Of a DNA stretch of 64,000 nt, positions 45,823-61,847 are shown one piece after another. The DNA comes from Gammaproteobacteria bacterium (GTDB taxonomy: Bacteria > Pseudomonadota > Gammaproteobacteria > Enterobacterales > Alteromonadaceae): the NCBI GenBank assembly GCA_018826295.1, contig JAHJZX010000021.1, positions 62,001 to 126,000 of the forward strand. Reading direction: 5' to 3'. The notes under the pieces were generated by a model. That model saw only the letters and a program-made list of their open reading frames with translations, was not told the origin of the DNA and searched no databases. Each line of letters begins with the position of its first letter. Position 1 is the stretch's first letter. Position numbers and translations under genes: made by a program.

Positions 45823-47048
45823 CCGCTAAGCTCCAGGCTGTGCTTCAGCATGTCAGCCATAAATCGCTGCGCTGTGTTGCGCTGTTGTTGCACCGCGTGC
45901 GCAAAAGTGGCATCAAGCTGCTCACCAGCTAGAGCCTGACTAACGGCTTGCACAACCTGACCATTTTTAACTGCTGCCATATCAAAAGCATAGCTGGCCA
46001 GACCCATATCAGTGTAAATGCCGGCAGATTTGTGCTCGTAATTTATCGCGATAGCTGCTGTACCAAAGTTCATCGAAATAATTGCGCTATGTAGGCGGGT
46101 GGCCACAGTAAGCCGACAAGATGCCAACTGCATTCCCAGCTCAACGTCGTTTAGTTCGCGCATCTCTACATCCGGCAATGGCAATTGCTGACATAAGTTG
46201 CGTATCCGCCAGGCGACCATGCGATCATCATTAGCATAACCGTCAATACCTGTGCAGGTAGAGTAAAAAGTAACCTGGTAATTCTGTGATATCAGCGAAT
46301 CTGCCAACATAGCTAAAGCCGTTTCGTACTCCTGTTGACTGATCCCCAGTCGCTGGCAAAATGGTGTTATGTCACGTACCGTTATAGCTATAGTGTTGGT
46401 TTTGTCAGGGGGGATAGTTGGTGTAGGTACCAACCAGGCAGTATCAGCCCCTATGACCGGATTGTTCAGCGATATTGCCGCCTGAGCTGCCCGACTGGCG
46501 CTAAGTTGCTCTCGCAATCCGCACCAGCTAGTATGTTTAAATATAAATTGGCTGAATATTCGGTACGCACGGCCGTTGAAAGGTCCGATACTGTGTCCGG
46601 CCAGATAAAGCGGCTTACCGGCTGCTATGGCGCATAGGGCATCTTCGAATTGAATTGTGCCGTAAATATCAACAAAAAATGAACCGCCAACCTGAATAAC
46701 CGCATCATAGGCTGCCAATTGTTCCACCTGCCGGCGCATATAACCGGGCAACCAACGTTTAATTTCCCGTGGTTTATTGTCGAATAAGGTAATTAGCAAC
46801 ACCAAATAATATGGCTGTAAGCGCCAATATATTTTTTGCCATATTGTGATGCGATGAGTTTTTCGATGCTGATACAGGGTGTCTGTCTGTGCTTTTTTCT
46901 GCAGAAAGAAGCTGGCGCTATCGGGATGACGGCTGCTGAATTCATAAGTTATATCGGGTTGGTTATCTAAAAAGTGCAGTAAACCACGTAAGATGGCAGC
47001 GTCACCCCGGTTAGCACAGGCATGGTTGCCTGTTATCAGATATTTCAC
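45813..47048 (-). CDS. Polysaccharide pyruvyl transferase family protein (WcaK-like)
   Basis: The 411-residue protein has the PS_pyruv_trans pattern: an N-terminal GNHACANRGDAAILRGLL loop (Gly-Asp-x-Ala-Ile), a glycan-strand QVGGSFFVD and later LAGHSIGPFNG, and a C-terminal RLHSAIISMNFGTAAIAINYEHK. Such enzymes move a ketal-linked pyruvate from phosphoenolpyruvate to a sugar (WcaK, CsaB, SpsM-like). Placed as the first gene of the minus-strand operon, divergent from the secretion operon by 136 nt. In Gram-positives a pyruvylated cell-wall glycan anchors SLH-type S-layers; any such link here is only a hypothesis. Confidence 0.85.
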   Translation of the reverse strand: MKYLITGNHACANRGDAAILRGLLHFLDNQPDITYEFSSRHPDSASFFLQKKAQTDTLYQHRKTHRITIWQKIYWRLQPYYLVLLITLFDNKPREIKRWLPGYMRRQVEQLAAYDAVIQVGGSFFVDIYGTIQFEDALCAIAAGKPLYLAGHSIGPFNGRAYRIFSQFIFKHTSWCGLREQLSASRAAQAAISLNNPVIGADTAWLVPTPTIPPDKTNTIAITVRDITPFCQRLGISQQEYETALAMLADSLISQNYQVTFYSTCTGIDGYANDDRMVAWRIRNLCQQLPLPDVEMRELNDVELGMQLASCRLTVATRLHSAIISMNFGTAAIAINYEHKSAGIYTDMGLASYAFDMAAVKNGQVVQAVSQALAGEQLDATFAHAVQQQRNTAQRFMADMLKHSLELSGCK

Positions 47049-47184: not shown

Positions 47185-47589
47185 GTGCGTTTACCGGCAA
47201 GAGTTCAGACAGGTTTTACGTTAATTGAATTATTGATCGTTATGGTGATTTTAGGTTTGTTGGCCTCGTTGGTCGCGCCTACCATGTTTTCAAAAGTTGA
47301 CTCGTCAAAACGTAATACAGCCGTTGCGCAAATGCAAATGTTGGCAACATCTTTAGACGCGTTTCGCCTTGATGTCGGTAAATATCCGGATAACCTGGAT
47401 GAGCTACTACGTTCTGACAGACGCGGTTGGGATGGCCCCTATTTACCAAGAGAATTACCACTGGATCCTTGGGGCACACCTTACGTATATCGTTTCCCTG
47501 GGCAAGATACAGCCTATGACTTGTTAAGCCTGGGTGCAGATGGCCAGGAAGGTGGCGAAGAAGACAATGCTGACATTATCAACCGATAG
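47185..47589 (+). CDS. gspG: Type II secretion-like major pseudopilin (GspG)
   Basis: The 134-residue protein has a prepilin leader ending at Gly10 and a mature start FTLIELLIVMVILG with Glu at +5, then the pseudopilin body DVGKYPDNLDELL, GWDGPYLPRELPLDPWGTPYVYRFP and DLLSLGADGQEGGEEDNADI, which is the calcium-binding GspG C-terminus. It forms the helical pseudopilus that pushes substrates through the secretin. The GTG is preceded by a perfect AGGAGG ribosome-binding site at 47174-47179, showing high translation. It is the first gene of an eleven-gene operon and overlaps gspE by 23 nt. No prepilin peptidase gene is present, so PilD would be needed from elsewhere. Confidence 0.93.
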   Translation: MRLPARVQTGFTLIELLIVMVILGLLASLVAPTMFSKVDSSKRNTAVAQMQMLATSLDAFRLDVGKYPDNLDELLRSDRRGWDGPYLPRELPLDPWGTPYVYRFPGQDTAYDLLSLGADGQEGGEEDNADIINR

Positions 47590-49288
47590 TCAGGTCTCAA
47601 ATACTGTGCACAAAGTCCAACTAGCTAAGCCCGCGGGGATCGCCGAGCATATTTTAAGCTTGGCGCTGGTGTCTGATGTGCAGTTAAAACGGGCACTGGA
47701 CTATCAAAAGCAACTTGGCGGCAGAATCGAGCATATCCTGGTAAACCTGGGGATAGTGCAAAAAGATGACCTGGTCGATATCTACGCTTCCTATCTGAAA
47801 TTGCCGGTATTTGAATCCTTAACCGAGCAATCTGAATTGCCGGTAGAGTTTCTGCATAGTTTTGATTTAGATGCCAGCTTTAAAGCTGGAGCTCTGCCGT
47901 TTTCTCTGGATAGTGCAGAGTTGCACCTGGCGGTTACTGATCCTTTCGATTTGGCGGTATACAGTTTGTGGCCGGCGTCAGAGCATAATCTGGCTATACA
48001 TCTATGCAAACAATCTCAGTTAGATGCGCTACGGGCGCAGTTACTGGCAAAAAAGTTATCTGAACAACATCAAACCCATGACTCCGGATCCGAACTGGAA
48101 CGGCTACGTGAGCTGGCTTTTGGCGCGCCGACAGTTAATCTGGTAAATAGCCTAATAGTACGCGGTATTAAAATGCGTGCTTCAGATATGCACATCGAGC
48201 CACTAAATGGCCGTTATAGGGTGCGATACCGGGTTGATGGCATCTTACATTTAAGCGACACCATACCACTGGATTTACAGTTAGGCGTTGTGTCGCGGAT
48301 TAAAATTCTGGCGGGTATGGACATTGCCGAGCGGCGTAAGCCACAAGATGGCAAAATAGAAACAAGTGTTGCCGGTAAAGAGTTAGATATACGTGTATCG
48401 TCGTTACCATTGGGTGAAGGCGAAAGCATGGTAATGCGTTTCCTATTAAAAGAATCGGTAAATTTTTCTCTTGAATCAATTGGTTATGAACCAGACTTAA
48501 TTGAGCTGATCAACCAGGATTTAAAGCGCACTACCGGCGTTATTTTAATGACCGGCCCGACCGGCTCAGGTAAAACCACCAGTCTGTATTCGTTTTTAGC
48601 CAAACTTAACCAGCCATCAGTAAAAATAATAACGCTGGAAGATCCGATAGAATATCAACTATCCGGTATTAATCAGGTGCAGGTAAATAGTGAAATTGGC
48701 TTTGATTTTTCGCGCGGTTTACGCAGTATCGTGCGACAAGACCCTGACATTATTATGGTGGGCGAAATTCGGGATCAGGAGACGGCCCGCATTGCGATGC
48801 AATCATCACTTACCGGCCACCTGGTGTTTAGTACCGTGCACACTAACGATGCACCAACCACTTTTACCCGTCTTATAGATCTGGGCGTAGAAGAGTTCTT
48901 GCTAAATGCTTCAGTTATTTCTGTCATGGCGCAGCGTCTGGTGCGAACTGTGTGCCAGCACTGTAAAGTACCTGATGAAAACACGGGGCTAATCATTCAG
49001 CATCCAGAAGTACAACAAATGCTTAGTACCCTAAATGCCGAGCCACAAATCTGTGTCGGTAAAGGCTGTGAGCGCTGTGGCGGTACCGGTTACCTGGGGC
49101 GGGTGGCGATTTTAGAATATTTACCAAACGATTATGAAATTCAATCCTTTGCTAAAGATCAGCAGTTTCTGCAGTCCGTCCGCGAATACCGCCAGCGCAA
49201 AGGCTTACGAACTCTGAAGCAGGACGGTCTGTTAAAAGTGTTGCGGGGCATTACTACTTTTGACGAAGTCATGCGGGTAGCAGGCTAA
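47567..49288 (+). CDS. gspE: Type II secretion-like assembly ATPase (GspE)
   Basis: The 573-residue ATPase has an N-terminal MshEN/GspE_N domain (about 20-170), the central domain with MHIEP, the Walker A GPTGSGKTTSLY, the Asp box with LEDPIEYQL, Walker B DPDIIMVGEIRD, the His box STVHTNDAPTT and a zinc-binding C-terminal segment (CQHC ... CERCGGTGY). It powers pseudopilus assembly on the cytoplasmic face of the platform protein. The ATG at 47567 with GAAGAAG upstream is preferred to a GTG at 47534. Its stop shares a base with the gspF start. Confidence 0.95.
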   Translation: MLTLSTDSQVSNTVHKVQLAKPAGIAEHILSLALVSDVQLKRALDYQKQLGGRIEHILVNLGIVQKDDLVDIYASYLKLPVFESLTEQSELPVEFLHSFDLDASFKAGALPFSLDSAELHLAVTDPFDLAVYSLWPASEHNLAIHLCKQSQLDALRAQLLAKKLSEQHQTHDSGSELERLRELAFGAPTVNLVNSLIVRGIKMRASDMHIEPLNGRYRVRYRVDGILHLSDTIPLDLQLGVVSRIKILAGMDIAERRKPQDGKIETSVAGKELDIRVSSLPLGEGESMVMRFLLKESVNFSLESIGYEPDLIELINQDLKRTTGVILMTGPTGSGKTTSLYSFLAKLNQPSVKIITLEDPIEYQLSGINQVQVNSEIGFDFSRGLRSIVRQDPDIIMVGEIRDQETARIAMQSSLTGHLVFSTVHTNDAPTTFTRLIDLGVEEFLLNASVISVMAQRLVRTVCQHCKVPDENTGLIIQHPEVQQMLSTLNAEPQICVGKGCERCGGTGYLGRVAILEYLPNDYEIQSFAKDQQFLQSVREYRQRKGLRTLKQDGLLKVLRGITTFDEVMRVAG

Positions 49289-50478
49289 TGCTAAGCTGGG
49301 AATTCGAAGCCATTGACGGCCAGGGCTCGCGGGTTAAAGGCCGTATCAGAGCCTTATCTGAGGCCGAAGCGTTGGCGATGGTTATTGCAAAGCAGCTATC
49401 GCCACTGCAGGTTAAACAGCTTAAACCGGATGCAGGTATATTCAATAGCATATCTGCAGCCGACTTAGAGCAACTGACAACGGAGCTATCGCTGCTACTG
49501 CGCAACGGCGTACAGCTGGACAGAGCGCTGGATATGATGTCACAGGCCAACCCCAATCCGGTAGCCGCTGAGATGCTGGGCGCAATGACCGAGCAAGTTC
49601 GAGGGGGTAACCCGCTGCATACTGCCTTTGCGCAGTTTCCGCGTTACTTCAATACCCTATACTGTGAAATGGTGCGCATTGGTGAAGAGTCCGGCCAGTT
49701 AGCGGTGACGCTGGAACGGCTGGGCCACAACCAAAAGTTTCAAAATGATCTAAAAGGCAAAGTTAACCAGGCGATGATTTATCCGGCATTTATCTTTGCA
49801 GTATGTCTGGTGGCTTTATTTGCTATTTTCAATTTTATTGTGCCAAGCATGGAAGGCTTGTTTGCCAATATGAAGGATATACCAGCGTATACTGCATTTT
49901 TGCTCGATAGCAGTGCCTGGATGCGACAAAATCAGTTAACGCTACTGATATTTGTCGCCGGTTTGATATTGCTCATTATGACGTCCTGGCGTAAGCCTTG
50001 GTTTCAAAGTCTGCTTTCATCAGTATTAAGGCGTACTCCACTCATTAAAAATGGCTTGCTGTTAAGTGAACGTATCCGTTTTATTTCAGCGATGCAGTTA
50101 ATGCTGCAAAGTGGTCTGCCGCTGGCTCAGGCGTTAGGTTTCTCAGTGGCCATCGCCAACGATAATAAAATCCAGGGCCAGTTAAAGCGCGTTAGAGATG
50201 AAGTATCTCAGGGTAAAATGTTGTCAGACTCACTAGCGGCAACCGACATTCTTGAACCTGTTATGCTGTCGCTGGTAAAAGTAGGTGAAGAGGGCGGTAA
50301 TCTTGACGTGGTATTTGGCGAAATGAGCGAGCGGGCGCGCTGGCGTTTTGAACAATGGGCAATGAAACTAACCAGTATGTTAGAGCCACTGTTGATTATC
50401 GTCATGGGCGGCTTAGTCGGCTCAGTAGTCGTCACCATGTTACTGAGTATAGTGTCAACGTCCGATGTACCTTTCTAA
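49288..50478 (+). CDS. gspF: Type II secretion-like inner-membrane platform protein (GspF)
   Basis: The 396-residue protein has two GspF/PilC repeats, each with a cytoplasmic helical bundle and membrane helices. The first contains LLLRNGVQLDRALDMM and RIGEESGQLAVTLERL, the second MLQSGLPLAQALGFS and VGEEGGNLDVVFGEM. Transmembrane helices are near 168-190, 215-235 and 365-390. It couples GspE to the pseudopilus. Its translation start shares one base with the gspE stop (TAATG). Confidence 0.94.
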   Translation: MLSWEFEAIDGQGSRVKGRIRALSEAEALAMVIAKQLSPLQVKQLKPDAGIFNSISAADLEQLTTELSLLLRNGVQLDRALDMMSQANPNPVAAEMLGAMTEQVRGGNPLHTAFAQFPRYFNTLYCEMVRIGEESGQLAVTLERLGHNQKFQNDLKGKVNQAMIYPAFIFAVCLVALFAIFNFIVPSMEGLFANMKDIPAYTAFLLDSSAWMRQNQLTLLIFVAGLILLIMTSWRKPWFQSLLSSVLRRTPLIKNGLLLSERIRFISAMQLMLQSGLPLAQALGFSVAIANDNKIQGQLKRVRDEVSQGKMLSDSLAATDILEPVMLSLVKVGEEGGNLDVVFGEMSERARWRFEQWAMKLTSMLEPLLIIVMGGLVGSVVVTMLLSIVSTSDVPF

Positions 50479-50872
50479 AGCTAAAGGCTTTACCCTTATC
50501 GAATTGTTGGTTGTGATGGTGCTGATGTCACTAAGCCTGAGCATTGTATTACCCATAACGGTAAATCAGGTTGATGCAGCGCGCCAACGCGCCGAGCGCC
50601 AGCTCTGTGCGATGTTTTTTCAGCAGGTACATAACAGTAGCTTCTTTTTAGCCCGTCCTATTGAAGTTACTGCAAGCGGCAGGATGCTAACCGCCACCGC
50701 CAAAGATTACCAAAAGCAGTTGGCGCTTGAATACACCGCCTTTACCGAGCAGACAGTTATTATTATGCCCGGTGGTTTGGCAGAACCCTTATCTTTAAAG
50801 GCTTATATTAATGAAAAAGCCTGGCAACTGGTAATAGATAATGAACAAGCAGCATGGTCTGACGCTGATTGA
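50465..50872 (+). CDS. gspH: Minor pseudopilin (GspH-like)
   Basis: The 135-residue protein has a prepilin leader cleaved after Gly8, mature FTLIELLVVMVLMSLSL with Glu at +5, and a short beta domain with GRMLTATAKDYQKQL. The conserved pseudopilin N-helix gives its class; the H assignment rests on position and length. The start overlaps gspF by 14 nt. It and the next two pseudopilins would form the tip of the pseudopilus with GspK. Confidence 0.78.
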   Translation: MYLSKAKGFTLIELLVVMVLMSLSLSIVLPITVNQVDAARQRAERQLCAMFFQQVHNSSFFLARPIEVTASGRMLTATAKDYQKQLALEYTAFTEQTVIIMPGGLAEPLSLKAYINEKAWQLVIDNEQAAWSDAD

Positions 50873-51245
50873 AGTGCTGATAGCGTCAATCATTTTGTTT
50901 ATGACATTAGGGTTAGTGGCAGTGGTGTTTCAACAAAACTTTGCAACCCAGATTCAGGCAGGCAAGTACATAACGTCACTGGCTGATTACAATTCGTTGC
51001 AGGCGCAAATTCGGTATGAACTAGAGCAGGGCCGTGTTAAAGGCAGCATAACCACTGCCAATAGTAACTACAGTTGGGAAGCGAAAAAGCTTAAGCAAGG
51101 TCCTGAGTTATTGGGGTTTAGCCCCGAAACCGGCAATGCTGAAACGGCAATAGGCGTATTAACCTTATTTAATGTCATTGTCAGCAATGAATCCGCATTA
51201 ACCTATGAGTTCAGGCAAACTATATGGCAAATCAGCGCGGACTAA
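50841..51245 (+). CDS. gspI: Minor pseudopilin (GspI-like)
   Basis: The 134-residue protein has a very short leader (cleavage after Gly6) and a mature N-helix LTLIEVLIASIILFMTLGL with Glu at +5, typical of GspI. Its start lies 32 nt inside the end of gspH in another frame, so the genes are translationally coupled. Known partners are J and K at the pseudopilus tip. The C-terminal domain is not well conserved. Confidence 0.82.
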   Translation: MNKQHGLTLIEVLIASIILFMTLGLVAVVFQQNFATQIQAGKYITSLADYNSLQAQIRYELEQGRVKGSITTANSNYSWEAKKLKQGPELLGFSPETGNAETAIGVLTLFNVIVSNESALTYEFRQTIWQISAD

Positions 51246-51916
51246 CCTTGTTAGAAATGCTTATCGCAACACTGATCTTAACCGCGGTGTTGTCTTTGGC
51301 CAGTAGTGCTTACTCGTATTACGTAGCGGGTTTTAATAAATCACAAGACCGTATTGCATTGCAGTTGCGACAAGCCAAAGCTGACCTTTCCTGGCAGGAA
51401 CAACTATCAGCAGCATTTGACTACAACATTAAAATCGATCGATACAACTACAAGCCCTGGTTTAAAGGTGGCAATGACAGTCTGTCCTGGGTGGCTACCA
51501 CCAGTATGCAGCAGCCTGGCAAAGCAGCTGTCGCCTGGTTGGGCGTGAAAGATAATAGCTTAATGTATTGTGAGCGCTTACTAGAGCAGGCGTTATTTAC
51601 CCGGGCTGATTTACAACCAGAAACCTTATGCAACACCTATAGCAACAATATAAAGCCAGTTAGCAAAATGACTGTTCAGTACTACAGCTGGCCTACGTTA
51701 GCAGACCGGCAAAATGCTATGTCAGAATCTTACCCTGGCATGCAAATTCAACCGGCAGCCTGGTTTAACCAATTTGATAGCTTTGTAACCGGTGTTTTAC
51801 CGCTGTTTATCAAAATAAGCTTAGATACTGACGAAACTTCAGCCGAGTACTGGGTGCGGTTAGAAAACATCGATCTACAGCGTTTGGGTATTTTTATGAG
51901 TGAAAACAATGGTTAA
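51224..51916 (+). CDS. gspJ: Minor pseudopilin (GspJ-like)
   Basis: The 230-residue protein has a leader cleaved after Gly6 and mature LTLLEMLIATLILTAVLSL with Glu at +5. The extended beta-rich C-terminal domain and length of about 220 mature residues fit GspJ. It overlaps gspI by 22 nt. Two cysteines near residues 109 and 128 could form a disulfide. Confidence 0.8.
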   Translation: MANQRGLTLLEMLIATLILTAVLSLASSAYSYYVAGFNKSQDRIALQLRQAKADLSWQEQLSAAFDYNIKIDRYNYKPWFKGGNDSLSWVATTSMQQPGKAAVAWLGVKDNSLMYCERLLEQALFTRADLQPETLCNTYSNNIKPVSKMTVQYYSWPTLADRQNAMSESYPGMQIQPAAWFNQFDSFVTGVLPLFIKISLDTDETSAEYWVRLENIDLQRLGIFMSENNG

Positions 51917-52820
51917 TGCCGCAGCAAAGCATGGCTCACAGCGTGGCATTGCTCTGATAATGGTGCTGATGCTGGCCGCTGTTATCTCTACCGTTATTAC
52001 CGTATATCAGTATAAGAGCCGGGCAAATATCACTACGGCGCAACAGGCAAAAAATAACCTGCTGGCACGGGCTGCGGTCGAATCGGTAAAAGAAGAGCTG
52101 GTATTTGAACTAATGACTACTCCACTATGGGTAGAACGGCCAAACAAGGCCCGCATTGCTGAGCTTGGACTACCTGAGAGTTTTAATTTTTGGGGGCGTC
52201 CCTTCACATGGCAAAACGCGACCATTCAAATTTATGACACCTCTGGTATGATCTCGGTGCATCCGTTTGAACCCAGGGTATGGTTAAATTTTCTAACCAG
52301 TTTTAACGTAACAGAGCCTGACCATGTGGTTGCCGCATTGCAGGATTGGTTCGACGAAGACGATTTTTTACACCTCAATGGCGCAGAAAAACAAGATTAT
52401 GCGCAAGAGGGTTTACCCAGAAATGGTTTGCCACAAACTGCAGACGAATTGGCGCTGGTAAAAGGGCTGGATAAAGACTGGCAACGCCTTGCACCCTATA
52501 TTACTTTCCTTGGCTCCTCTGTGATAAACTTCGATTTTTCGCCTGCTGGATTATTACCTACTTTGCTGGGGGATTACCGGGCTGAACAGTTTATCGCTAT
52601 TCGTGACGGTGCTGAGCCAGATGCAACTAATGATCTGATGATCGAACGGGCAGAAGAAATGGCTGTCTATTTAAGCCGCAGGCTAAAAATAACAATTGAT
52701 ATCACAATAGAAAATGCTGCTTACCGGCAGTCATTCGTATTAATTAAAAGCAATAGCGCTAAACGCGTAAGTTATATCGCGGAAAAACAGCCTGGGTATA
52801 TAGGAACTGAAACCAAGTGA
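51909..52820 (+). CDS. gspK: Minor pseudopilin tip protein (GspK-like)
   Basis: The protein is about 303 residues (306 from the alternative GTG at 51900). The leader ends QRG and the mature start IALIMVLMLAAVIS has Met in place of the usual Glu at +5, the hallmark of GspK. The large C-terminal domain contains WFDEDD, NGAEKQDYAQEG and NFDFSPAGLLPTLL, as in GspK alpha domains. It caps the pseudopilus. The start overlaps gspJ by 8 nt. Confidence 0.88.
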   Translation: MVNAAAKHGSQRGIALIMVLMLAAVISTVITVYQYKSRANITTAQQAKNNLLARAAVESVKEELVFELMTTPLWVERPNKARIAELGLPESFNFWGRPFTWQNATIQIYDTSGMISVHPFEPRVWLNFLTSFNVTEPDHVVAALQDWFDEDDFLHLNGAEKQDYAQEGLPRNGLPQTADELALVKGLDKDWQRLAPYITFLGSSVINFDFSPAGLLPTLLGDYRAEQFIAIRDGAEPDATNDLMIERAEEMAVYLSRRLKITIDITIENAAYRQSFVLIKSNSAKRVSYIAEKQPGYIGTETK

Positions 52821-53902
52821 AAGCATTAACCCAAGTGTTCCAAAGGCCGGTATGGCTGGATAATACATTAAAAGGTACAGCACCTTCATTAAAGCAACGT
52901 CAACCTATGTTGGTGTTGCCCAAAGAGCATTACTCTGAGTTTCAACGTAGCTACAAGGCTGCGTTAACCGATTTACCCAAACTTATCCGTAACGAACTAA
53001 AAGTGTTGTCTGCTGCCGGCAACAAAGCCATCTGGAAAGTGCAGGGAAATGATAATGGCCGTTATCAGGTATTGTTTGCTGTGATCCCGGCTTCAACCTT
53101 GTCGCTACTTGCTCCGGGCTGGTGTTTACTGATCCCGGAAACCTGGATACTTTACCGGCTGTTATCAAAGCGCACACTGTACAAAGTGCAGGCAGACACG
53201 CCGTACTGGGCCTGGCTTACCGAAGCCAATGTGCTACACCTTACTCAAATTCAGGGATTGATGGCTAATTCCGCCTTTTTTCTCGACGCTTTAGGTGAAA
53301 ATAGTGAGGGTGTCACTATTGAAGCCCTGTCATTAAAGCAGAAGTTACAACAGCAAAAACTGCCACTGAAATGGTGGGAACTGGCCGGTTGCTTAATATA
53401 CGTTGCGGCACAGCATACTAAACCAAATACCAACTACAAAAAACTGGCGATCTTTGCTGGCGCTGCAGCGACAGCCTATATGTTGGTGCTATCGTCATTC
53501 TTGGCATGGCAGGAGTCAAGTTTGCAAGCCAGCGTGCAGCAGTTGCAGGCCGAAGCCAGTACCTTGTTTGATCAGCAGCAGGCATTGGATAAAAAGGCCG
53601 ATGTAATAGCTCAGTATCATGCGCTTTACCAACGTTTTCCCGCTTCTGGCATCATACTTCATCAGTTAAGCAGCCAACTGACAGAAGATATTGTGTTGGA
53701 GAACATCCAGCTAAGCGGGCCATTAATGCAAATTCGTGGTGTATCTACCTCAGCTATAAATGTGTTGGCCAAGTTAACCGGCGACAGCACCTGGAAAGAG
53801 GTAAAGTTTGATCGCAATATCCAAAAAGTAAGTAACGGCGAAAGCTTTACCATTAGTCTGGTTTTTAACGACGACAAAGCAGGAGCCGGTAATGAAGAAT
53901 AA
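52817..53902 (+). CDS. gspL: GspL/PilN-like inner-membrane protein
   Basis: The 361-residue protein has a cytoplasmic part (about 1-212) that is poorly conserved, a single transmembrane helix at about 214-236 (IFAGAAATAYMLVLSSFLAW), then a coiled-coil and ferredoxin-like periplasmic domain with LHQLSSQLTEDIVLENI. This is the GspL or PilN+PilM-like layout; the actin-like fold is not obvious, so the family call rests on topology and position. The GTG start overlaps the gspK stop by 4 nt. Confidence 0.7.
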   Translation: MKALTQVFQRPVWLDNTLKGTAPSLKQRQPMLVLPKEHYSEFQRSYKAALTDLPKLIRNELKVLSAAGNKAIWKVQGNDNGRYQVLFAVIPASTLSLLAPGWCLLIPETWILYRLLSKRTLYKVQADTPYWAWLTEANVLHLTQIQGLMANSAFFLDALGENSEGVTIEALSLKQKLQQQKLPLKWWELAGCLIYVAAQHTKPNTNYKKLAIFAGAAATAYMLVLSSFLAWQESSLQASVQQLQAEASTLFDQQQALDKKADVIAQYHALYQRFPASGIILHQLSSQLTEDIVLENIQLSGPLMQIRGVSTSAINVLAKLTGDSTWKEVKFDRNIQKVSNGESFTISLVFNDDKAGAGNEE

Positions 53903-54422
53903 GCCACTTTTACTGGCACTGCTGGCGATATTGCTGGTGGCGAAGTTTGTACTGGTGCCCTGGCTGGAGTGGGTAAGCCAGAAAACTGCCACGATAAATC
54001 AGTTAAAGCTTAGCGAAATGCGCTTGTCTAATGTGCAGCAACGCTCTGCACAATTATTGGCTCAGCAAAAAGCCATCGACGAAAACTATGCCAGCTTAGA
54101 GTCAGTTTGGTTAACGGTACCGCAAAGCCAACGTACTATTCAGATACTCAAACATCTGGAAACTGAAGCCAAACAGGCCAATGTAGAACTGAATGCCCGC
54201 AATACCGGTCAGGTTGATGAGCGCGATGCCATCACTATACCAGCTAGTGTTTTCGTCAGGGGAACTCCGCAAAATATATACCGTTTAATAGCGCAGTTAG
54301 AATCGGGTTCGCCGCGTATCTTGTTTTCCGGTGTTCGTTTGGTTAAAGCCAATGCTGCCGCCGGCGAAATTACCGGTACCCTGGATCTGTTGGTGCCATT
54401 GGCACCGGGAGACGTTAAATGA
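53892..54422 (+). CDS. gspM: GspM/PilO-like inner-membrane protein
   Basis: The 176-residue protein has a short N-terminus, one transmembrane helix at about 6-23, a coiled coil at about 35-65 and a periplasmic ferredoxin-like domain with FVRGTPQNIYRLIAQLESGSPRILFSGVRL. It pairs with the GspL-like protein to hold the platform. It overlaps its upstream gene by 11 nt, with AGGAG just before the ATG, and the downstream gene by 4 nt. Confidence 0.75.
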   Translation: MKNKPLLLALLAILLVAKFVLVPWLEWVSQKTATINQLKLSEMRLSNVQQRSAQLLAQQKAIDENYASLESVWLTVPQSQRTIQILKHLETEAKQANVELNARNTGQVDERDAITIPASVFVRGTPQNIYRLIAQLESGSPRILFSGVRLVKANAAAGEITGTLDLLVPLAPGDVK

Positions 54423-54922
54423 TAAATCAGTTAAGCCGGCAAGAAAAAATGCTGTACGCAGTGGTGGTGCTGGCGTTAATCAGCCATTTTGTCGCCACAC
54501 TTCGGCAAACCTATGTTAAACCGCTTACTGCACGCAAGGTAGAGAGCAGTGTTGCTACACCCATGCCACAGCGCAGCGTGGCGGAACAGCAAACCAGCAG
54601 TGAGGCATTCAGCAACTTATTTGGTGTAAAGCCGCAAACGCCGCAGCAGGACGAGCAACAGCCTAAAGCGCCTGAAACGCTAATAGATATGCAACCTAAG
54701 TTACTGGCTATAGACGCAGTAGATGGCAAACTGACAGCCAGGCTTTGGTTGAATAATATGCAGGGCTCTAAATTGTTATCGGCATCGGTTGGTGATGCGA
54801 TGCACAGTTATACCCTGAGTGCATTGTCGTCATCAACAGCAGAATTTACGCATAACGCCCAACCAGATGAGCAGCCACTGCCAGCAATAAAACTGCAGTT
54901 GTTTAAAGCCCGGTCTGAGTAA
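54419..54922 (+). CDS. gspC: GspC-like inner-membrane protein without PDZ domain
   Basis: The 167-residue protein has one transmembrane helix at about 12-29, a Gln/Pro-rich linker, and a homology-region-like domain at about 90-160 (LLAIDAVDGKLTARLWLNN, VGDAMHSYTLSAL) that binds the secretin N0 domain in GspC. It lacks the C-terminal PDZ or coiled-coil domain of standard GspC (about 270-300 residues), so substrate recognition must reside elsewhere. The position next to the secretin supports the assignment. The start overlaps gspM by 4 nt. Confidence 0.68.
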   Translation: MINQLSRQEKMLYAVVVLALISHFVATLRQTYVKPLTARKVESSVATPMPQRSVAEQQTSSEAFSNLFGVKPQTPQQDEQQPKAPETLIDMQPKLLAIDAVDGKLTARLWLNNMQGSKLLSASVGDAMHSYTLSALSSSTAEFTHNAQPDEQPLPAIKLQLFKARSE

Positions 54923-54956
54923 TGTTTCACTCTTTTATTTACAGGCATAGTAATTA

Positions 54957-56990
54957 ATGATAACTACAAAACGTCTAACCAAGCCGCTTGTTACCTTAAC
55001 TCTGGCTGCATTTACCGTATCTTGCGCATCTATGGCGCCGGGCGAGCGCAAAAAGGAGTTTACCGAGAATTATCAAGTTCCGTCTTCATTTCTTAAACAG
55101 GAGCAGATATTACAGCAGCGCGATGCTGTTGCAGAAACTGAGGAACCGGCTAAGCAGTTTCAGGAAGGCCGTATAGACAGTATGGCAACGATAAAGCGTG
55201 GCTCACCCTTACTTACCCAGCTACCACATTTTGCCAATAGTAATCCTATTAAAGTAGCGGTTGACGAAATGGAAGTGCCGCAACTGGCGCACTATGTGTT
55301 TGGTGAGCTACTGTCATTAAGCTATGTGTTGTCGTCTGACGTAGAGCGCATGCGCGAAAAGCTGGCCTTGAATATTCAGCAGGATATCAGCCCGCAAGAG
55401 CTGTTTCAGTTAACCCGTCAGGTACTAAGCCAACAAAATGTTGAGGTTTACAGCAAAGACAACATTATCTATGTCAACAAGGCATCTAACCGCATTCTGG
55501 ACCGCTCTATCGGTATCGGCCGGGAGCTTGAGGATTTGCCCGAGTCTGGCGACGATATTATTCAGTTAGTGCCATACGTTTATAACTCGTCGCGCTCTAT
55601 CATCAGCATTATAAGTAAGCTGTCCAATGCCCAGGCCTATCCGGACAACACTAACCGCTTACTGGTAATGGAGGGCAAACGTGCCGATATTGAACGGGCT
55701 TTGCAAATTGTAAACATGTTAGACGTACCGCATGCCCGTGGCCGGGACATTCGTATGCTTAGCATGGTGTATTTATCTCCTGAAGCCATGATTGCGCAAA
55801 TGCAAACTCTAATGACGGCTGAAGGCATTCAAATTGGTGAAGACATCGCTCTGGTACCCATTAACCGTTTAAACGCCGTGGTAGTGTATTCGGGTAATAA
55901 AACCCTGGGTGACAGGGTAAGTATGTGGGCCCGTATGCTGGATGTTGCTACCGGGGGTGAAGTTGAGCGGATGTATGTATACCGGCCCAACTTTGCCAAG
56001 GCCGCCGATTTGGTAAAAAGCCTTAAAGTCGTGCTGGGGCCAACTACATCGGCCCAACAAGATGACCAGCCTGCAAGTAGCCCATCTTCAACCGGCCGTG
56101 CTTCCGGCGGGCAAAGCACTTCCGCCAGTGGCGCCGGGGTAAAGGTTACCGCCGACGAAAGCCAGAATGCACTGGTTATTAATGCTTCACCCAGCAAATA
56201 CCAGGAGATACTGGGCTTGCTCGAACAATTAGACCGTTTACCAGGCCAGGTCGCATTACAGGTTATAGTGGCCGAGGTAGATCTTACCGATAACGTATCA
56301 TCCGGTATCGACTGGTTTTACAGCTCGGGTAATAACTTCGCCAAATCGGCCAGCTTAGATTTAAAATCCAGCACCGGCAGTATTTCCTTCAGCGGTTTTA
56401 ACGGTGACTGGCGCGTTGCATTGCAAATGCTGGCCAGTAAAACCAACACCCGGGTATTATCACGGCCTTATTTAGTGGTGCGCGATGGCGAAAGCGCCAG
56501 CATTAACTCTGGTGAGCAGGTGCCTATTATTACTGAGTTTCGCGATTCAGATAATTCCGATACGGTGCGCACCAGTGTGCAGTACCGCTCTACCGGTATT
56601 AGCTTATCGGTAACACCAATAATAAATGCTGATGGCTTGGTTAGCCTGCAAATTTCGCAGGAAACCTCCAAAAGTTCACCTAATACTACTTCAGATATTT
56701 CATCACCTACTATTTCATCACGCAGTTTAAGCACCAGCGTGCTGGCGGCTAACGGCCAAACAGTAGTGCTGGGCGGCCTGATAAAAGAAGATTTAACCGA
56801 TAGTGACTCGCGCGTGCCAATTTTAGGTGACTTACCTATACTGGGTAATTTATTTAAAACCAAGGGTAATAATTTTGCCCGCACAGAATTAATGATACTG
56901 ATTACGCCAAGAATAATCAGAGATACCACAGAGTTAGACGAGTTTGGTCGTAAGCTGTCTGAGCTCTACAGTTTTCCGGTACAGCCATAA
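54957..56990 (+). CDS. gspD: Type II secretion-like outer-membrane secretin (GspD)
   Basis: The 677-residue protein has a signal peptide with a possible lipobox ending TVSC (Cys23), N0 domain at about 95-170 (VDEMEVPQLAHYVFG), N1-N2 repeats (DDIIQLVPYVYNSSR; LDVPHARGRDIRM), a Ser/Gln/Gly-rich linker at about 365-395, N3 (NALVINASPSKYQEI), and the secretin core: LQVIVAEVDLTDNVSSGIDW, LSRPYLVVRDGESASINSGEQVPI and QTVVLGGLIKEDLTDSDSRVPILGDLPILGNLF. It forms the outer-membrane gate. The lipoprotein form would not need a separate pilotin. It is the last gene of the operon, directly before the abundant secreted protein. Confidence 0.94.
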   Translation: MITTKRLTKPLVTLTLAAFTVSCASMAPGERKKEFTENYQVPSSFLKQEQILQQRDAVAETEEPAKQFQEGRIDSMATIKRGSPLLTQLPHFANSNPIKVAVDEMEVPQLAHYVFGELLSLSYVLSSDVERMREKLALNIQQDISPQELFQLTRQVLSQQNVEVYSKDNIIYVNKASNRILDRSIGIGRELEDLPESGDDIIQLVPYVYNSSRSIISIISKLSNAQAYPDNTNRLLVMEGKRADIERALQIVNMLDVPHARGRDIRMLSMVYLSPEAMIAQMQTLMTAEGIQIGEDIALVPINRLNAVVVYSGNKTLGDRVSMWARMLDVATGGEVERMYVYRPNFAKAADLVKSLKVVLGPTTSAQQDDQPASSPSSTGRASGGQSTSASGAGVKVTADESQNALVINASPSKYQEILGLLEQLDRLPGQVALQVIVAEVDLTDNVSSGIDWFYSSGNNFAKSASLDLKSSTGSISFSGFNGDWRVALQMLASKTNTRVLSRPYLVVRDGESASINSGEQVPIITEFRDSDNSDTVRTSVQYRSTGISLSVTPIINADGLVSLQISQETSKSSPNTTSDISSPTISSRSLSTSVLAANGQTVVLGGLIKEDLTDSDSRVPILGDLPILGNLFKTKGNNFARTELMILITPRIIRDTTELDEFGRKLSELYSFPVQP

Positions 56991-57046
56991 TATTGATGTT
57001 TGATAAAAAAATGAGCAATTACAAAGATTTTTTTAAAACATTAGTG

Positions 57047-57076
57047 TTGACTGTGTATGACAAACATAGCTATGAT
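57047..57076 (+). promoter_or_regulatory. Strong sigma-70 promoter for the S-layer-like gene
   Basis: TTGACT (57047-57052) and TATGAT (57071-57076) are separated by 18 nt, a near-consensus arrangement. Transcription would start at about 57083, giving a leader of about 180 nt. Confidence 0.7.
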
Positions 57077-57172
57077 TCGACACGTTGAATACGCTTCGGT
57101 GGCTTTTGCAGGTGGTGAACGCATGCAAGCGCCGGCTGCTGTACTAAAGTCGCAGTTGGATTCAATGCCTTA

Positions 57173-57242
57173 GGCAGGTTCTTAATAAAAGTCATTACCT
57201 GCCAAAGGAACACGTGTTCCAGTAAGCAGTAAATTGCTGCTT
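57173..57242 (+). promoter_or_regulatory. Structured 5' leader with three consecutive inverted repeats
   Basis: In order: GGCAGGT (57173-57179) with ACCTGCC (57197-57203), a 7-bp stem with a 17-nt loop; GGAACACGTGTTCC (57207-57220), a perfect 14-base palindrome; AAGCAG (57224-57229) with CTGCTT (57237-57242). The last stem ends 11 nt before the ribosome-binding site GGAG at 57253. They lie in the 5' leader of a very highly expressed gene and may stabilise its mRNA, as long leaders do for other S-layer genes, or the palindrome may be an operator. Confidence 0.55.
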
Positions 57243-57265
57243 GAAAATTGACGGAGAAAGATGGA

Positions 57266-59083
57266 ATGAAAAAACTTAATAAAGCGCTTATTTCTACTGC
57301 AGTATTAGCGGGCTTATATGCTGGCAATGCGTTCGCAGGTACAGAAGCGTGTTTTGAAATTTACAAAGGTGCACCAGAAACTAACCACACTAACGGCTCG
57401 TTCGGTGGCGCTGACTGTTACACTACTGCTGCTACTCCTGCTCGTGTTGCTGGCTTAGCCGCTATCGTACCAGGTAGTGTTGCTTATGAGCTGACTAAAG
57501 GCGGTGCTAACGGTTTTCAAATTGACCTGAATAACGTTGCTTTCCGTGCCGTTCCAGGTGATGCATTTGAAGGCGTTCAAATCGTTTATATCCCAACGAC
57601 TGACATCCCAGGTGCTTCACGCATCAAGGTTGCTTTATCAGGTGCTGAGTTCTTCGGTAACTCTAACCAGATTTTCCTGTTAAGCCCAGCTGGTGATATT
57701 CTGGCAACGTCTGATGGCGTAGTTGACGGTAAAACTGAAGTTGAGTTCCTGACTCAGTCAGGCGTTACTATCCCAGCCGGTACCCGTATGCTGTTCTCTA
57801 AAACGAACGGTTTAACTTCTGCTGGTGCAACTCTGGTTCCAGCTGAGTACGCAACTCACGTACCAGTAGGTATCCGTACTACAAACACAGCTTGTGTTGA
57901 TGGCGATTCTAAGCGTTCTATCACTATCCAGGCTACTGCTGCCCGCACAGATGGTGGTTCAAGCATCATCGGTGGTGTATCACGTGCTGAGAAGTTAATT
58001 GATATCTCTCCACAGTTCTACACCTTCTTAGGTACAGCAACTGTTGGTCAGGTTAACGCTCAAACTAAGAACTTTGATGAAGCAACTATTGTTGCCCGTA
58101 GCGAGTTCGTGTTTGACGGAGCTGGTAACACTGGTCTGAAACTGCGTAAAACTGAACTGGTAGCACCGTTTACTTTCGTAGACCGTGGTTTAGCAACAGC
58201 TCCTGCTGCTCAGGTTATTGATCTGAAGCACACTCTGGTTGCTGCTGATAAACTGAACGTTAAGTTCTCTACTACTGGTGATGCTGGTTCTTCTGCTCGT
58301 TTCTACTTCTACAACGACCAGGACAACACCGCTGGTGCCACTAAAGGTGCACTGGCAGATGCTATCACTCTGGGTGCTAACACTCACGGTGTGTTAGACA
58401 CTAACTACGTTAAAGACGCGTCTCTGTTCTTTACTCGTAACGAGTTTGCAGCAGATGCAGAAGACGGTTTTGTACCTGCTTCTTTCGGTGCTTTAGCGCC
58501 GGACGCAGCGTCTAACACTGTATTTGTTACTGTTGTTCAGTCAGACACTACAGATCCAATCACTCCACTGGGCTTTAACTACAACGTCAATGTTGAAAGC
58601 ATGTTAGACCTGGATGGTTCAACTCTGTTGGATCACTGTACTAAAACTACTACTACGCACAACGTAGGTATCAACGGTGCAGTATTAAAAGTGCCTTACT
58701 CTGTATCTGGTGCTGGTAACTTCGTACGTATTACGAACGAGCACAACCAGGAAGCAGAAGTAACTGTAGACGTATTCGGTGAGTCTGTAGATGGTACTGT
58801 TGGCGCACGTCACGCTACTGCGGTACGTTTAGCTAACATCCCAGCGAAGTCTTCTTACGTTTACTTCGTACCAGAAATCATCGACGCTGCAGTAGCTCAG
58901 AAGAACTACTCTGGTGCAGATGGCGCAGCTCAAACTGCTAACACTGGTAACCCACTGCGTCACACTCTGACATTCGCAGTAACTGCTCCTAAAGATACTG
59001 TACACGGTGTAACTGTACAGCGTCTGTCAACTGGTAACGACCGCGTTATGCCAGTTCTGGACCAGAATACTTGGGCACAGTAA
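57266..59083 (+). CDS. Very highly expressed exported protein, probable S-layer subunit (Slr4-like)
   Basis: The 605-residue protein has a signal peptide MKKLNKALISTAVLAGLYAG plus NAFA (cleavage after about residue 24), then an acidic Ala/Thr/Val/Asn-rich beta-structured chain with four cysteines (ACFE, DCYT, ACVD, DHCTK). Codon use differs sharply from neighbours: GGT, GCT, GTT, AAC, CTG and CGT dominate, as in ribosomal-protein genes. It follows a near-consensus promoter and is ended by a perfect terminator. Position directly after an eleven-gene T2SS-like operon suggests it is the substrate. The whole pattern resembles Slr4, the S-layer protein known from Pseudoalteromonas tunicata (recalled resemblance, not aligned). 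Alternatives: a biofilm matrix or fibre protein. The ATG at 57266 has GGAG 9 nt upstream. Confidence 0.65.
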   Translation: MKKLNKALISTAVLAGLYAGNAFAGTEACFEIYKGAPETNHTNGSFGGADCYTTAATPARVAGLAAIVPGSVAYELTKGGANGFQIDLNNVAFRAVPGDAFEGVQIVYIPTTDIPGASRIKVALSGAEFFGNSNQIFLLSPAGDILATSDGVVDGKTEVEFLTQSGVTIPAGTRMLFSKTNGLTSAGATLVPAEYATHVPVGIRTTNTACVDGDSKRSITIQATAARTDGGSSIIGGVSRAEKLIDISPQFYTFLGTATVGQVNAQTKNFDEATIVARSEFVFDGAGNTGLKLRKTELVAPFTFVDRGLATAPAAQVIDLKHTLVAADKLNVKFSTTGDAGSSARFYFYNDQDNTAGATKGALADAITLGANTHGVLDTNYVKDASLFFTRNEFAADAEDGFVPASFGALAPDAASNTVFVTVVQSDTTDPITPLGFNYNVNVESMLDLDGSTLLDHCTKTTTTHNVGINGAVLKVPYSVSGAGNFVRITNEHNQEAEVTVDVFGESVDGTVGARHATAVRLANIPAKSSYVYFVPEIIDAAVAQKNYSGADGAAQTANTGNPLRHTLTFAVTAPKDTVHGVTVQRLSTGNDRVMPVLDQNTWAQ

Positions 59084-59110
59084 TTCATTACTGAGTTAAG
59101 TTAATAAAAA

Positions 59111-59133
59111 CCCTCGCTTGCGAGGGTTTTTTT
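59111..59133 (+). terminator. Strong rho-independent terminator of the S-layer-like gene
   Basis: CCCTCGC (59111-59117), a TT loop and GCGAGGG (59120-59126) are followed by seven Ts. The stem is extended by flanking A/T pairs. It is a textbook terminator 27 nt after the stop. Confidence 0.92.
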
Positions 59134-59145
59134 ATCGGAGTAGCT

Positions 59146-59859
59146 ATGAAGTTTTTACTACCGGGCCTGCTGTTGGCCTTATTGGCTGGCTGTACCGGCG
59201 ACAAACAGCAGCAAGCAGAAATAGCCCAACTGCGCGCTGAGCTGGAGCAGGTTAAAAGCCTGCAAACCACCATTGCCCGCCGTGTTGGCATGGGCGAGCT
59301 GGTGCGCCCCGACGCTATCGAGTTTCATGAAGGTGAAAAAGTTGGTAGCGAAGACGCGGCATTAGTTATTGTTGAATTTACCGACTTACATTGCCCGTTT
59401 TGTGCCCGTTTTCACAACGAGGTATATCCGCAATTAAAAGAGCAGTTTATCGACACCGGTAAAGTGTTGTTTGTTGGCCGCGAATTACCACTGTTAAGCA
59501 TTCACCAGCAGGCCGGATTTGCCGCGGTAGCACTGCGCTGCGCATCTGCCCAGCAGCAATATAGTGCGGCTAAAGATAGCCTGTTTAACAGCTCAAAAGG
59601 CTTTACCGCTGAGTATATGGAGCAGTTACCAGTTGCTCTTGGGGTAGATGCTGAACAATTTAATACCTGTTTGCAAGATGCTGCAGTGCATCAGACGGTT
59701 AGCAAGTCTATTAGTTATGCACAAGAGCTGGGCTTTAAGTCTACTCCAACTTTTATTGTTGGCCGCAAGCAAGGCAATACTGTAGTTGATTACACCGTAT
59801 TAACCGGTGCCAAAGATCTGGCTGCTTTTACATCGGTATTTGATAGTCTGACGCAGTAA
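59146..59859 (+). CDS. DsbA-like thioredoxin-fold lipoprotein
   Basis: The 237-residue protein has a lipoprotein signal with lipobox LAGC (Cys16), a heptad-like coiled-coil stretch at about 22-48, and a DsbA-type thioredoxin domain at about 70-235 with the redox motif CPFC (after FTDLH), ELPLLSIH, and the cis-proline region STPTFIVGR. It would catalyse disulfide formation or isomerisation in the periplasm, tethered to a membrane. It lies just after the terminator of the S-layer-like gene, whose product has four cysteines, so a dedicated folding role is plausible. There is GGAG 9 nt before the ATG but no clear separate promoter, so it may rely on read-through. Confidence 0.88.
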   Translation: MKFLLPGLLLALLAGCTGDKQQQAEIAQLRAELEQVKSLQTTIARRVGMGELVRPDAIEFHEGEKVGSEDAALVIVEFTDLHCPFCARFHNEVYPQLKEQFIDTGKVLFVGRELPLLSIHQQAGFAAVALRCASAQQQYSAAKDSLFNSSKGFTAEYMEQLPVALGVDAEQFNTCLQDAAVHQTVSKSISYAQELGFKSTPTFIVGRKQGNTVVDYTVLTGAKDLAAFTSVFDSLTQ

Positions 59860-59909: not shown

Positions 59910-59989
59910 ATGTTTAACCTTTGACGGTGCTTTTGCGCCTGGCGCTCAGTGGTATACTGACGGGCAATTTTGGCATATCAGGTGTTGCG

Positions 59990-61288
59990 GTGATCAAATC
60001 TTTGCTGGCAAATAAATTAGTGCGCCAGGTGTCGTTGTTGCTCAGTGGCACTTTACTGGTGCAGCTAATTAACTTTGGCTTTATGCCGCTGGTGTTACGT
60101 ATATACGGTCCTGCAGAATTTGGTGAGCTAGGTGCGTTTAATGCGCTATTGCTGCTGCTGTTCCCGCTGGCGGCGTTGTGCTTGCCGATGGCGGTCGTGC
60201 AAGGGCGTAACCGCACTGAATGCCGCTATATCGCCAGCACAGCCTGGGCAGTGGCGGTTGGCTTTAGCCTGCTGCTCTTTTTATTGCTGCTGCTATTTAA
60301 ACAATCACTGTTAACCTTGTTGTCGGTACAAAGTATTGGCAATCTGGTGTTTTTATTACCACTGGCGATGTTGTTTGCCGCACGGTTACAAATTAGCCAG
60401 CAACTGCTGATAAAACAACAGCAGTTTAAAGTGCTGGCCAAGGCAGATGTGTTGCAGGCACTTATTGTTAATCTGGCCCGGTTGCTAATGGGCCTGTGGC
60501 AGAGTGTCGCCGCTGTACTGGTAACCATAGCGTCATTTGCGTATTTATTGCACAGTGTTTTATTGCGGTTGTTGGCCGGACAGCCACTACGCCATTGGCA
60601 ACCACTAAGTGTCTGGCGACATATGATGTCACGCCGCTACTGGCTGAGACTAAATCGCACCTTAGTTAAATTTCGCGCCTTTGTATTGTTTCAAACCCCG
60701 CAGGCACTGCTAAACGCTGCCGCCCAAAGTGCCCCTGTGTTGGTACTGGCGGCTACCTTTGGCAGCGCCGCAGCTGGTTTTTACACCCTGGCCAAGGCGA
60801 TACTGGCATTGCCCGCTATGTTACTGGGCCGGGCAGTAGGTGATGTGTTTTACCCGCATTTTACAGCGGCCTATCAACAACAAAAGCCGCTGGTCGCTAT
60901 TTTAGCTAAAGCCAGTCTGAGCCTGGCAGCAATAGGGCTGCTGCCTTTTAGTGTGTTTATCATTGCCGGGCCCTGGTTATTCGCTTTGGTATTTGGCCAA
61001 GAATGGTACGCCAGTGGCGAATATGCGCGCTGGATGGCTGTGTGGCTGTATTGTGCCTTTGTAAACACGCCCAGCGTTAAAGCGGTTATGGTTTTGCAAG
61101 TACAACACTGGGCAATAGCACTAAATGTTGTGACATTAAGTTTACGTTTGGCCCTGTTATGGTTGGTTGGCAGCTATACCGCAGATCCTATTAAGGCGAT
61201 TGCGGCTTTTGCTATGGTTGGCGTTGCGCACAGCAGTATATTTACTTTAATGGCGTTGTATTTCAGTAAAGCCCGACAGCGCTATTAG
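59990..61288 (+). CDS. Wzx-type polysaccharide flippase (third copy)
   Basis: The 432-residue protein has about 12 transmembrane helices and the usual family opening (VRQVSLLLSGTLLVQLINFGFMPLVLRIYGPAEFGEL, quoted only as its general form: Tyr-Gly-Pro-x-x-Phe-Gly). The GTG at 59990 is preferred to an earlier in-frame TTG at 59921 because the latter would overlap a TATACT box (59953-59958), while GTG has AGGTG upstream. It is the third flippase-like gene in the window. Downstream lies the yjbEFGH-type operon with its own promoter. What it translocates is unknown. Confidence 0.82.
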   Translation: MIKSLLANKLVRQVSLLLSGTLLVQLINFGFMPLVLRIYGPAEFGELGAFNALLLLLFPLAALCLPMAVVQGRNRTECRYIASTAWAVAVGFSLLLFLLLLLFKQSLLTLLSVQSIGNLVFLLPLAMLFAARLQISQQLLIKQQQFKVLAKADVLQALIVNLARLLMGLWQSVAAVLVTIASFAYLLHSVLLRLLAGQPLRHWQPLSVWRHMMSRRYWLRLNRTLVKFRAFVLFQTPQALLNAAAQSAPVLVLAATFGSAAAGFYTLAKAILALPAMLLGRAVGDVFYPHFTAAYQQQKPLVAILAKASLSLAAIGLLPFSVFIIAGPWLFALVFGQEWYASGEYARWMAVWLYCAFVNTPSVKAVMVLQVQHWAIALNVVTLSLRLALLWLVGSYTADPIKAIAAFAMVGVAHSSIFTLMALYFSKARQRY

Positions 61289-61333
61289 CTGGTGCAGTTT
61301 GACCTTGTTAACTAAATGATGGATATTTAGTGC

Positions 61334-61361
61334 TTGATGTTTGGCAGTATTTTGGTATAGT
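61334..61361 (+). promoter_or_regulatory. Promoter of the yjbE-like gene
   Basis: TTGATG (61334-61339) and TATAGT (61356-61361) with a 16-nt spacer; TGG directly before the -10 makes it also an extended -10 element. It is about 43 nt before the yjbE-like start. Confidence 0.65.
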
Positions 61362-61403
61362 CTTGGATAAATTTTTTACACAATGTCTTTTAAAGGAATG
61401 ACT

Positions 61404-61721: not shown

Positions 61722-61739
61722 GTTTAAGTTTGCTATAAA

Positions 61740-61761: not shown

Positions 61762-61847
61762 ATTGCTGCAGGCTTTTGCCGTTGTTTTTTCTCTGCGTTT
61801 ATCTGACACGGCATGCCGGTTTACTCAAACAACATGAGCCTTAATTT

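Follow-up and report, generated by a model that had tools for sequence, protein, structure and literature searches.

A block of genes at positions 47185..59859 of a 64,000-nucleotide stretch of genomic DNA (the window), from a 4.57-Mb genome whose genus we infer to be Rheinheimera, is likely a surface-layer (S-layer) biogenesis island (probability about 0.72). In order, the block comprises an operon resembling a type II secretion system (T2SS), a 275-base gap, the gene slp for a presumed S-layer protein, a terminator, and a gene for a DsbA-like lipoprotein. On this reading, slp would be expressed at a high level and its product carried by Sec to the periplasm, to fold there while the DsbA-like lipoprotein oxidises or isomerises its four conserved cysteines. 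The folded protein would then cross the outer membrane through the dedicated T2SS, the secretin of which bears a lipoprotein signal, and assemble at the surface into an S-layer held by polysaccharide from the flanking genes. Much of this functional outline has already been printed for Slr4; a T2SS beside an S-layer gene has been published for Slr4 (in 2020), NpdA and VapA (PMC7821379, PMC10765051, PMC4483657). Apparently new are a subtype with DsbA and four cysteines, paired lineages of secretins and substrates, a common C-terminal domain, secretins with a lipoprotein signal and pyruvyl transferases as frequent neighbours.

The secretion operon and its exported neighbour

Eleven tightly packed genes on the plus strand (47185-56990) follow the order gspG-E-F-H-I-J-K-L-M-C-D, as identified by Pfam and NCBIfam profile searches of the window's proteins together with position. 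All ORFs were found at the positions originally given, and the T2SS-like operon of the original prediction, with core parts in this order and ahead of slp, is real. Its recognised core consists of the secretin, ATPase, platform and major pseudopilin (GspD, E, F and G). The major pseudopilin gene gspG (47185..47589; T2SSG E 4.1e-31; TIGR01710 137 bits, above cut-off) has a presumed start within an open reading frame (ORF) that opens at 47146, the profile query having covered 47197-47586. It is followed by gspE for the ATPase (47534..49288; TIGR02533 521 bits, cut-off 630), whose product bears a degenerate MshEN-like N-terminal domain at residues 41-84 (NF053729 35.2 bits against a cut-off of 38), and by gspF for the inner-membrane platform (49288..50478; TIGR02120 260 bits, cut-off 424). 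The gspH-, gspI- and gspJ-like minor pseudopilin genes (50465..50872, 50841..51245 and 51224..51916) were assigned by an N_methyl match and their place in the conserved order. Next come gspK (51900..52820; T2SSK_1st E 5.8e-12), a gspL-like gene with a PilN-type domain (52817..53902; PF05137 26.6 bits, above cut-off), and a gspM-like gene (53892..54422; NF040576 E 1.8e-9, under cut-off) and a gspC-like gene (54419..54922; T2SSC E 0.031, under cut-off), both assigned by position as well. The gspD secretin gene (54957..56990) scores 344 bits with TIGR02517 (cut-off 351) and exceeds the Secretin cut-off.

GspE, F, K and D all fall below the NCBI equivalog cut-offs and are therefore divergent. The GspC-like protein (167 amino acids, aa) yielded no PDZ match in the Pfam/NCBIfam scan, as anticipated, and a GspC with HR and PDZ domains, a trait of T2SSs, is thus lacking from the window operon. 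Certain accepted GspC proteins are also devoid of a PDZ domain, and its absence therefore counts only against the label 'canonical T2SS'. The same genome also encodes a canonical T2SS, to whose GspD the window GspD is 28% identical over 522 columns. That the block is no more than a canonical T2SS operon beside an unrelated gene is scarcely credible: the core gene complement would fit, but the gene order, the divergence and the conserved neighbour contradict it. Neither GspN nor a prepilin peptidase is encoded in the block at 47185-59859, so that these two components are missing from what was originally proposed as a complete locus.

The secretin bears a lipoprotein-like signal. Its Cys23 is invariant in 11 of 11 aligned sequences, and a lipobox-like cysteine is present in 45/45 recovered island-type GspD proteins (N-termini judged by eye), while none was seen in the first 60 residues of the canonical GspD from the same genome. 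The signal suggests that the secretin may pilot itself and dispense with a separate pilotin.

Downstream of gspD, slp (57266..59083, plus strand) encodes a 605-aa protein with a Sec/signal peptidase I-type signal (cleavage at MKKLNKALISTAVLAGLYAGNAFA|GTEA, by inspection) and a mature form of 581 aa (60.5 kDa, isoelectric point 4.9) that contains four cysteines. It had no match in Pfam, NCBIfam or PDB-sequence searches. The claim that slp carries the strongest expression signals of the window is upheld by its effective codon number (32.9), the lowest of the 53 window genes computed, with the next at 40.6 and a median of 51.4 across the 50 window genes longer than 150 codons. Moreover, CGT accounts for 84% of its arginine codons versus a mean of 27%. 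This codon bias is consistent with very high abundance.

The slp 5′ leader is predicted to form two hairpins (57207..57242, plus strand), namely the palindrome GGAACACGTGTTCC at 57207-57220 and a second hairpin at 57224-57242, both preceding a GGAG at 57253. In the window, leader folding gave z = -2.96, and across 22 loci the 60-base slp leaders were more stable than their shuffles (mean z -1.68; 17/22 under -1). The corresponding values were -0.35 for gspG (n=46), -0.12 for gspF (n=48), -0.07 for gspK (n=37), -0.33 for gspL (n=8) and -2.12 for dsbA (n=20), a comparison that is descriptive as the rows are related and some leaders near-identical. Substrate genes of the sister-type loci described below gave -1.47 (n=27). 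In 23 of these 27 leaders (L105-L138), a palindrome GTTTCATGAAAC or ATTTCATGAAAT adjoins the ribosome site, often 3′ of a variable hairpin; it may be a regulator site or an mRNA element, and neither palindrome occurs in the window. Reading by eye placed an intrinsic terminator at 59111..59133 (plus strand), separating slp from the dsbA-like gene; the terminator scan did not list it.

Conserved linkage and the DsbA-like lipoprotein

Relatives of slp are sparse. Searches found it in 7/196 genomes of the family, 4/31 of the genus and 4/394 of the order (counts here and below include the window's own genome where it is part of the set; the genus set also holds G557 and G563, i.e. Rheinheimera baltica and R. 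maricola), at full length in 8/108 genomes of a Pseudoalteromonas set centred on G678, plus two partial copies, and at 14 loci in a scan of named genomes from Rheinheimera, Pseudoalteromonas, Pseudocolwellia, Paraglaciecola and Colwellia. Merging duplicates and excluding the decayed copies of G575 (L033) and G777 (L070) left 21 separate relatives that carry slp in full. Without exception, slp lies there beside this type of T2SS, directly or with dsbA between. Linkage was thus the rule, and not the rarity that the original prediction had named as contrary to it. Two layouts exist: T2SS-slp in Rheinheimera-named genomes, G575 and G514, and slp-dsbA-T2SS in Pseudoalteromonas, Colwellia, Paraglaciecola and others. 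A DsbA-like gene adjoins slp in 19/21 relatives, and dsbA is the only other gene recurring between slp and the T2SS across both layouts.

The two decayed loci retain traces of the island. At L033 (G575:C1:1-19900; ~7600-9900, minus strand), slp, dsbA and the sugar-enzyme gene are present once more in decayed form, next to YjbE/YjbF/GfcC homologues, in a genome that also has an intact island. At L070 (~8900-9200, minus strand), a relic of the slp signal peptide with stops persists, and slp, dsbA and the T2SS are gone; G777 keeps Wza-, Wzz- and ligase-like genes (by likeness to those of L041) and glycosyltransferases, and seems to have lost the island as one block.

As the original prediction had it, the exported four-cysteine protein is followed by a DsbA-like lipoprotein gene (59146..59859, plus strand; Thioredoxin_4 E 2.1e-28), with a CPFC active site and a lipobox assigned by eye. 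A CPFC or CPYC motif was likewise seen by eye in the intact copies of relatives. By sequence, the product can be placed among the DsbA/Thioredoxin_4 oxidoreductases, which have a thioredoxin fold with CxxC. Mature slp products contain exactly four cysteines in 20/22 loci (the cysteines being aligned in 15 rows); the exceptions, with six, are R. baltica and R. maricola, whose loci alone have no neighbouring DsbA. In the stretches fetched (mostly ~20 kb), the DsbA-like gene was present in 20/22 window-type loci versus 0/27 sister-type loci, whose substrates hold 0-4 cysteines. Among the 49 loci, DsbA therefore goes only with the four-cysteine window type. This points to pairing of the Slp cysteines by the lipoprotein. 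It is improbable, albeit worth weighing, that the lipoprotein instead acts on a component of the T2SS, whether the secretin or a minor pseudopilin, or more broadly in quality control of the envelope. Such a role would suit its position, which adjoins slp and, in one of the gene orders, gspG, as well as the two slp genomes with no DsbA nearby; however, a DsbA-like gene is missing from each of the 27 sister stretches, where the T2SS parts are the same but the substrates lack the four-cysteine set.

Should Slp be its client, the lipoprotein would amount to a disulfide helper dedicated to a bacterial S-layer protein. The searched text of the Slr4 and AnnoView papers (i.e. outside supplements and figures) contained no thioredoxin or DsbA, and that of the Slr4 and NpdA papers no disulfide or cysteine. 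In the paper on the Aeromonas A-layer (PMC4483657), DsbA appears just once, in the title of a reference, and a literature search for a link of DsbA or disulfides with S-layers and type II secretion gave no such report among the matches listed, as judged by title and the start of the abstract.

Sister-type loci, secretin lineages and the Slr4 group

A GspD profile detected this T2SS class in 43/108 Pseudoalteromonas genomes (at E 1e-120) and in 10/31 genomes of the window's own genus, all at <=4.6e-159 with nothing between there and the cut-off of 1e-60. Of the ten, four carry slp; in the remaining six, the slot is occupied by another exported protein. Among the 35 Pseudoalteromonas matches without slp, 21 were read (20 plus G734) and 14 left out; each of those read has, 3′ of gspD, an ORF of 438-735 aa whose start resembles a signal. 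A candidate substrate thus follows gspD in 27/27 sister-type loci read. The exported proteins in this slot vary greatly among species (438-663 aa in the 26 loci L103-L122 and L133-L138), which suggests fast diversification of a surface protein.

GspD was recovered for 45/49 loci, lying outside the fetched stretches in G109, G079, ALOHA and E2M01. In a tree from a quick method with long outgroup branches, the 18 window-type rows formed one clade and 24/27 sister rows another, each with a Shimodaira-Hasegawa-like approximate likelihood ratio test (SH-aLRT) value of 100. The sister rows L071, L103 and L104 fell outside both clades, and the canonical GspD of the window's genome outside all. Window-type GspD of Rheinheimera is 35.7% identical to window-type GspD of Pseudoalteromonas and 31.0% to sister-type GspD of Rheinheimera; the sister types of both genera share 36.6%, and the window and sister types of Pseudoalteromonas 27.5%. 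Secretins hence cluster by substrate class rather than by genus. Within each class, distances between secretins track those between their substrates (correlation r 0.60 and 0.83; 0/2000 permutations as high, with relatedness left in).

One of the 27 sister loci, L118, probably contains slr4 of Pseudoalteromonas tunicata, judging from length, mass and signal cleavage. Read from an internal ATG, its substrate has 579 aa (1737 bp; 59.2 kDa, mature 56.9 kDa), with predicted cleavage after residue 23; the available text on Slr4 gives a 1,737-bp coding region, ~59 kDa, a 57-kDa band and cleavage at 23-24, and describes Slr4 as very abundant and forming a p4 lattice (PMC7821379). None of the other 26 sister-type substrates fits the Slr4 length. 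As in the window, the published locus of P. tunicata D2 places a very abundant Sec-exported protein directly 3′ of a cluster of T2SS genes (T2SG, E, F, K, D and others; PMC7821379). The secretin of L118 belongs to the sister clade and its substrate appears to have the common C-terminal domain. In contrast to slp, the probable Slr4 has two cysteines, no DsbA gene in the stretch covered, a different sequence outside the C-terminal domain, and a leader with the GTTTCATGAAAC palindrome that the window is missing. The GspE beside it clears the cut-off for MshEN, a cyclic di-GMP-type domain, with 39.4 bits.

Profile-profile comparisons with hhalign (reversed controls <=2.7%) linked the two groups through intermediates. 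The window family matched L104 with a probability of 98.1% (E 1.3e-13, columns 79-571), and the family combined with L104 matched 18 sister substrates taken together with 98.4% (E 5.5e-15); ten column-shuffled controls of this window-plus-L104 profile, as opposed to the one extended by L103 and L071, reached <=0.1%. Once L103, L104 and L071 had all been added, the family matched the Slr4 group with 96.2% (E 2.1e-9) and Slr4 plus the short group with 97.8% (E 1.2e-12). The part in common comprises slp residues ~458-596. By these profile matches, slp and the Slr4 group appear to have a remote C-terminal domain in common, reached via intermediates. This route links slp to the group with the probable Slr4, and slp did not align to an unrelated family; the direct match to the Slr4 group alone was not significant.

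Several results weigh against an S-layer island of the Slr4 kind. Compared directly, the window family and the Slr4 group gave 20% (E 1.1e-3), weak if at the same C-terminal place, and two other sister groups gave 25.7% and 5.8% (the latter being the short group). With L104 added, the values were 60% for the Slr4 group alone, 79.6% for Slr4 plus the short group, and 9.9% for the short group alone, the best match there being the signal peptide. An AlphaFold model of the slp product (predicted local distance difference test score, pLDDT, 65) resembles generic Ig-like proteins and no specific S-layer fold. Two slp relatives keep their cysteines although no DsbA gene was found in the stretch read, and the other full T2SS of the genome could also act. 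Finally, a comparable machine in Shewanella, the P49 system, has been published as a vesicle-cargo loader and not as an S-layer exporter.

P49, published S-layer loci and the polysaccharide surroundings

According to the available text of its report (PMC6971210), P49 is the major vesicle protein of Shewanella vesiculosa HM13, encoded 3′ of a T2SS-like cluster, with a single hypothetical gene separating gspD2 from P49. Cluster order, a second T2SS besides the canonical one in the genome, and Wza/WecA/Wzx neighbours recall the window, a likeness that concerns gene surroundings. Unlike the window, Table 1 of the report has no DsbA gene, and its authors list GspC, L, M, H, I and J as missing, the window equivalents being present but divergent; by analogy, the prepilin-type and hypothetical genes listed for the P49 cluster probably correspond to these six.

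Disruption of gspD2 removes P49 from vesicles despite the canonical T2SS (PMC6971210). The slp product could correspondingly be an abundant polysaccharide-bound surface or vesicle cargo, exported by the same T2SS without forming a lattice. We regard this as unlikely, if the most substantial of the alternatives. For it speak the similarly ordered cluster beside wza, wecA and wzx, the loss from vesicles, and a main text of the P49 paper that nowhere mentions an S-layer. Against it, the probable Slr4, whose namesake forms a lattice (PMC7821379), occupies the same slot in a sister clade of the same machine. Moreover, no lattice test of P49 is described in the available text of PMC6971210, and the cargo and S-layer readings may be one.

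Export of the slp product by the canonical T2SS, with the divergent operon serving another substrate or building a pseudopilus, is very unlikely. A canonical T2SS is indeed present in the window genome, and some P49 is still extracellular in the Shewanella gspD2 mutant (PMC6971210, available text); yet the linkage of slp to the divergent T2SS holds in 21/21 genomes and two gene orders, secretin and substrate diverge in pairs, and dsbA is the sole other gene that recurs between slp and the T2SS.

Two further S-layer systems are comparable by gene context or description rather than by sequence. For NpdA of Paracidovorax/Delftia, a gsp cluster lies upstream of the S-layer protein gene (PMC10765051). 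The VapA A-layer of Aeromonas salmonicida, with its Sps T2SS, resembles the window in combining a dedicated T2SS and an S-layer gene inside an O-antigen locus, but the Sps table starts with E-F-G (PMC4483657). Beyond the 49 loci, L172, L179 and L184, from other families of the class, are T2SS loci with nearby S-layer-like proteins of 474-594 aa, possibly of the NpdA type, that show weak, profile-dependent similarity to the C-terminal domain.

We tentatively propose, while holding it to be less probable than not, that Slr4, slp, probably P49 and perhaps NpdA form one surface-array superfamily. Their common C-terminal domain would be recognised by a co-evolving lipoprotein-secretin T2SS, with each T2SS clade locked to its own substrate class and accessory parts per class, such as the DsbA lipoprotein where there are four cysteines. 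The anchor would be an often-pyruvylated polysaccharide, a Gram-negative parallel to CsaB/SLH. Such a superfamily would join the Slr4 S-layer and P49 vesicle-cargo literatures, no paper containing both names having been found in a literature text search, and would hint at the polysaccharide held by such layers. Substrate recognition by T2SSs is a long-standing open question, for which an apparent one-substrate machine with many co-diverged pairs and a common C-terminal domain would offer a clean system for domain swaps.

Consistent with the O-polysaccharide context originally described, the island is embedded in a surface-polysaccharide locus with genes for Wza-like SLBB and Wzz proteins, flippases, glycosyltransferases, sugar enzymes, a pyruvyl transferase and YjbF/GfcC. 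Upstream on the plus strand lie genes for a Wza-like SLBB export protein (14618-17365) and a Wzz-like protein (17299-18306), together spanning 14618..18306, and for a Polysacc_synt_2 nucleotide-sugar enzyme (38039..40009), presumably of the WbpM type, whose homologue directly follows dsbA in 4Y26, UBA8519 and G575. On the minus strand (43308..45822), a flippase gene (43308-44618) and a group 1 glycosyltransferase gene (44605-45822) adjoin a polysaccharide pyruvyl transferase gene (45813..47048, minus strand; PF04230 E 4.9e-26) that is divergent from gspG. Downstream, flippase, YjbE-like, YjbF and GfcC genes for surface polysaccharide occupy 59921..63291 (plus strand), the YjbE label coming from position and inspection.

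In Gram-positive bacteria, pyruvylated polysaccharide binds SLH domains (CsaB). By analogy, a pyruvylated polysaccharide might anchor the slp product, which we offer as a lead and not as a result. A pyruvyl transferase homologue is present in 16/49 island stretches (5/22 window-type, 11/27 sister-type; raw counts, absence meaning none in the fetched stretch), as detected with a hidden Markov model built from 12 of these genes, nine of them Pfam-checked, plus the window's own. In nine stretches, namely those of the window, G575 (L036), L014, L064, L067, L105, L108, L115 and L122, it is the immediate neighbour of the T2SS operon (<=111 bases away, with an overlap of the computed span in one case); this holds for both gene orders.

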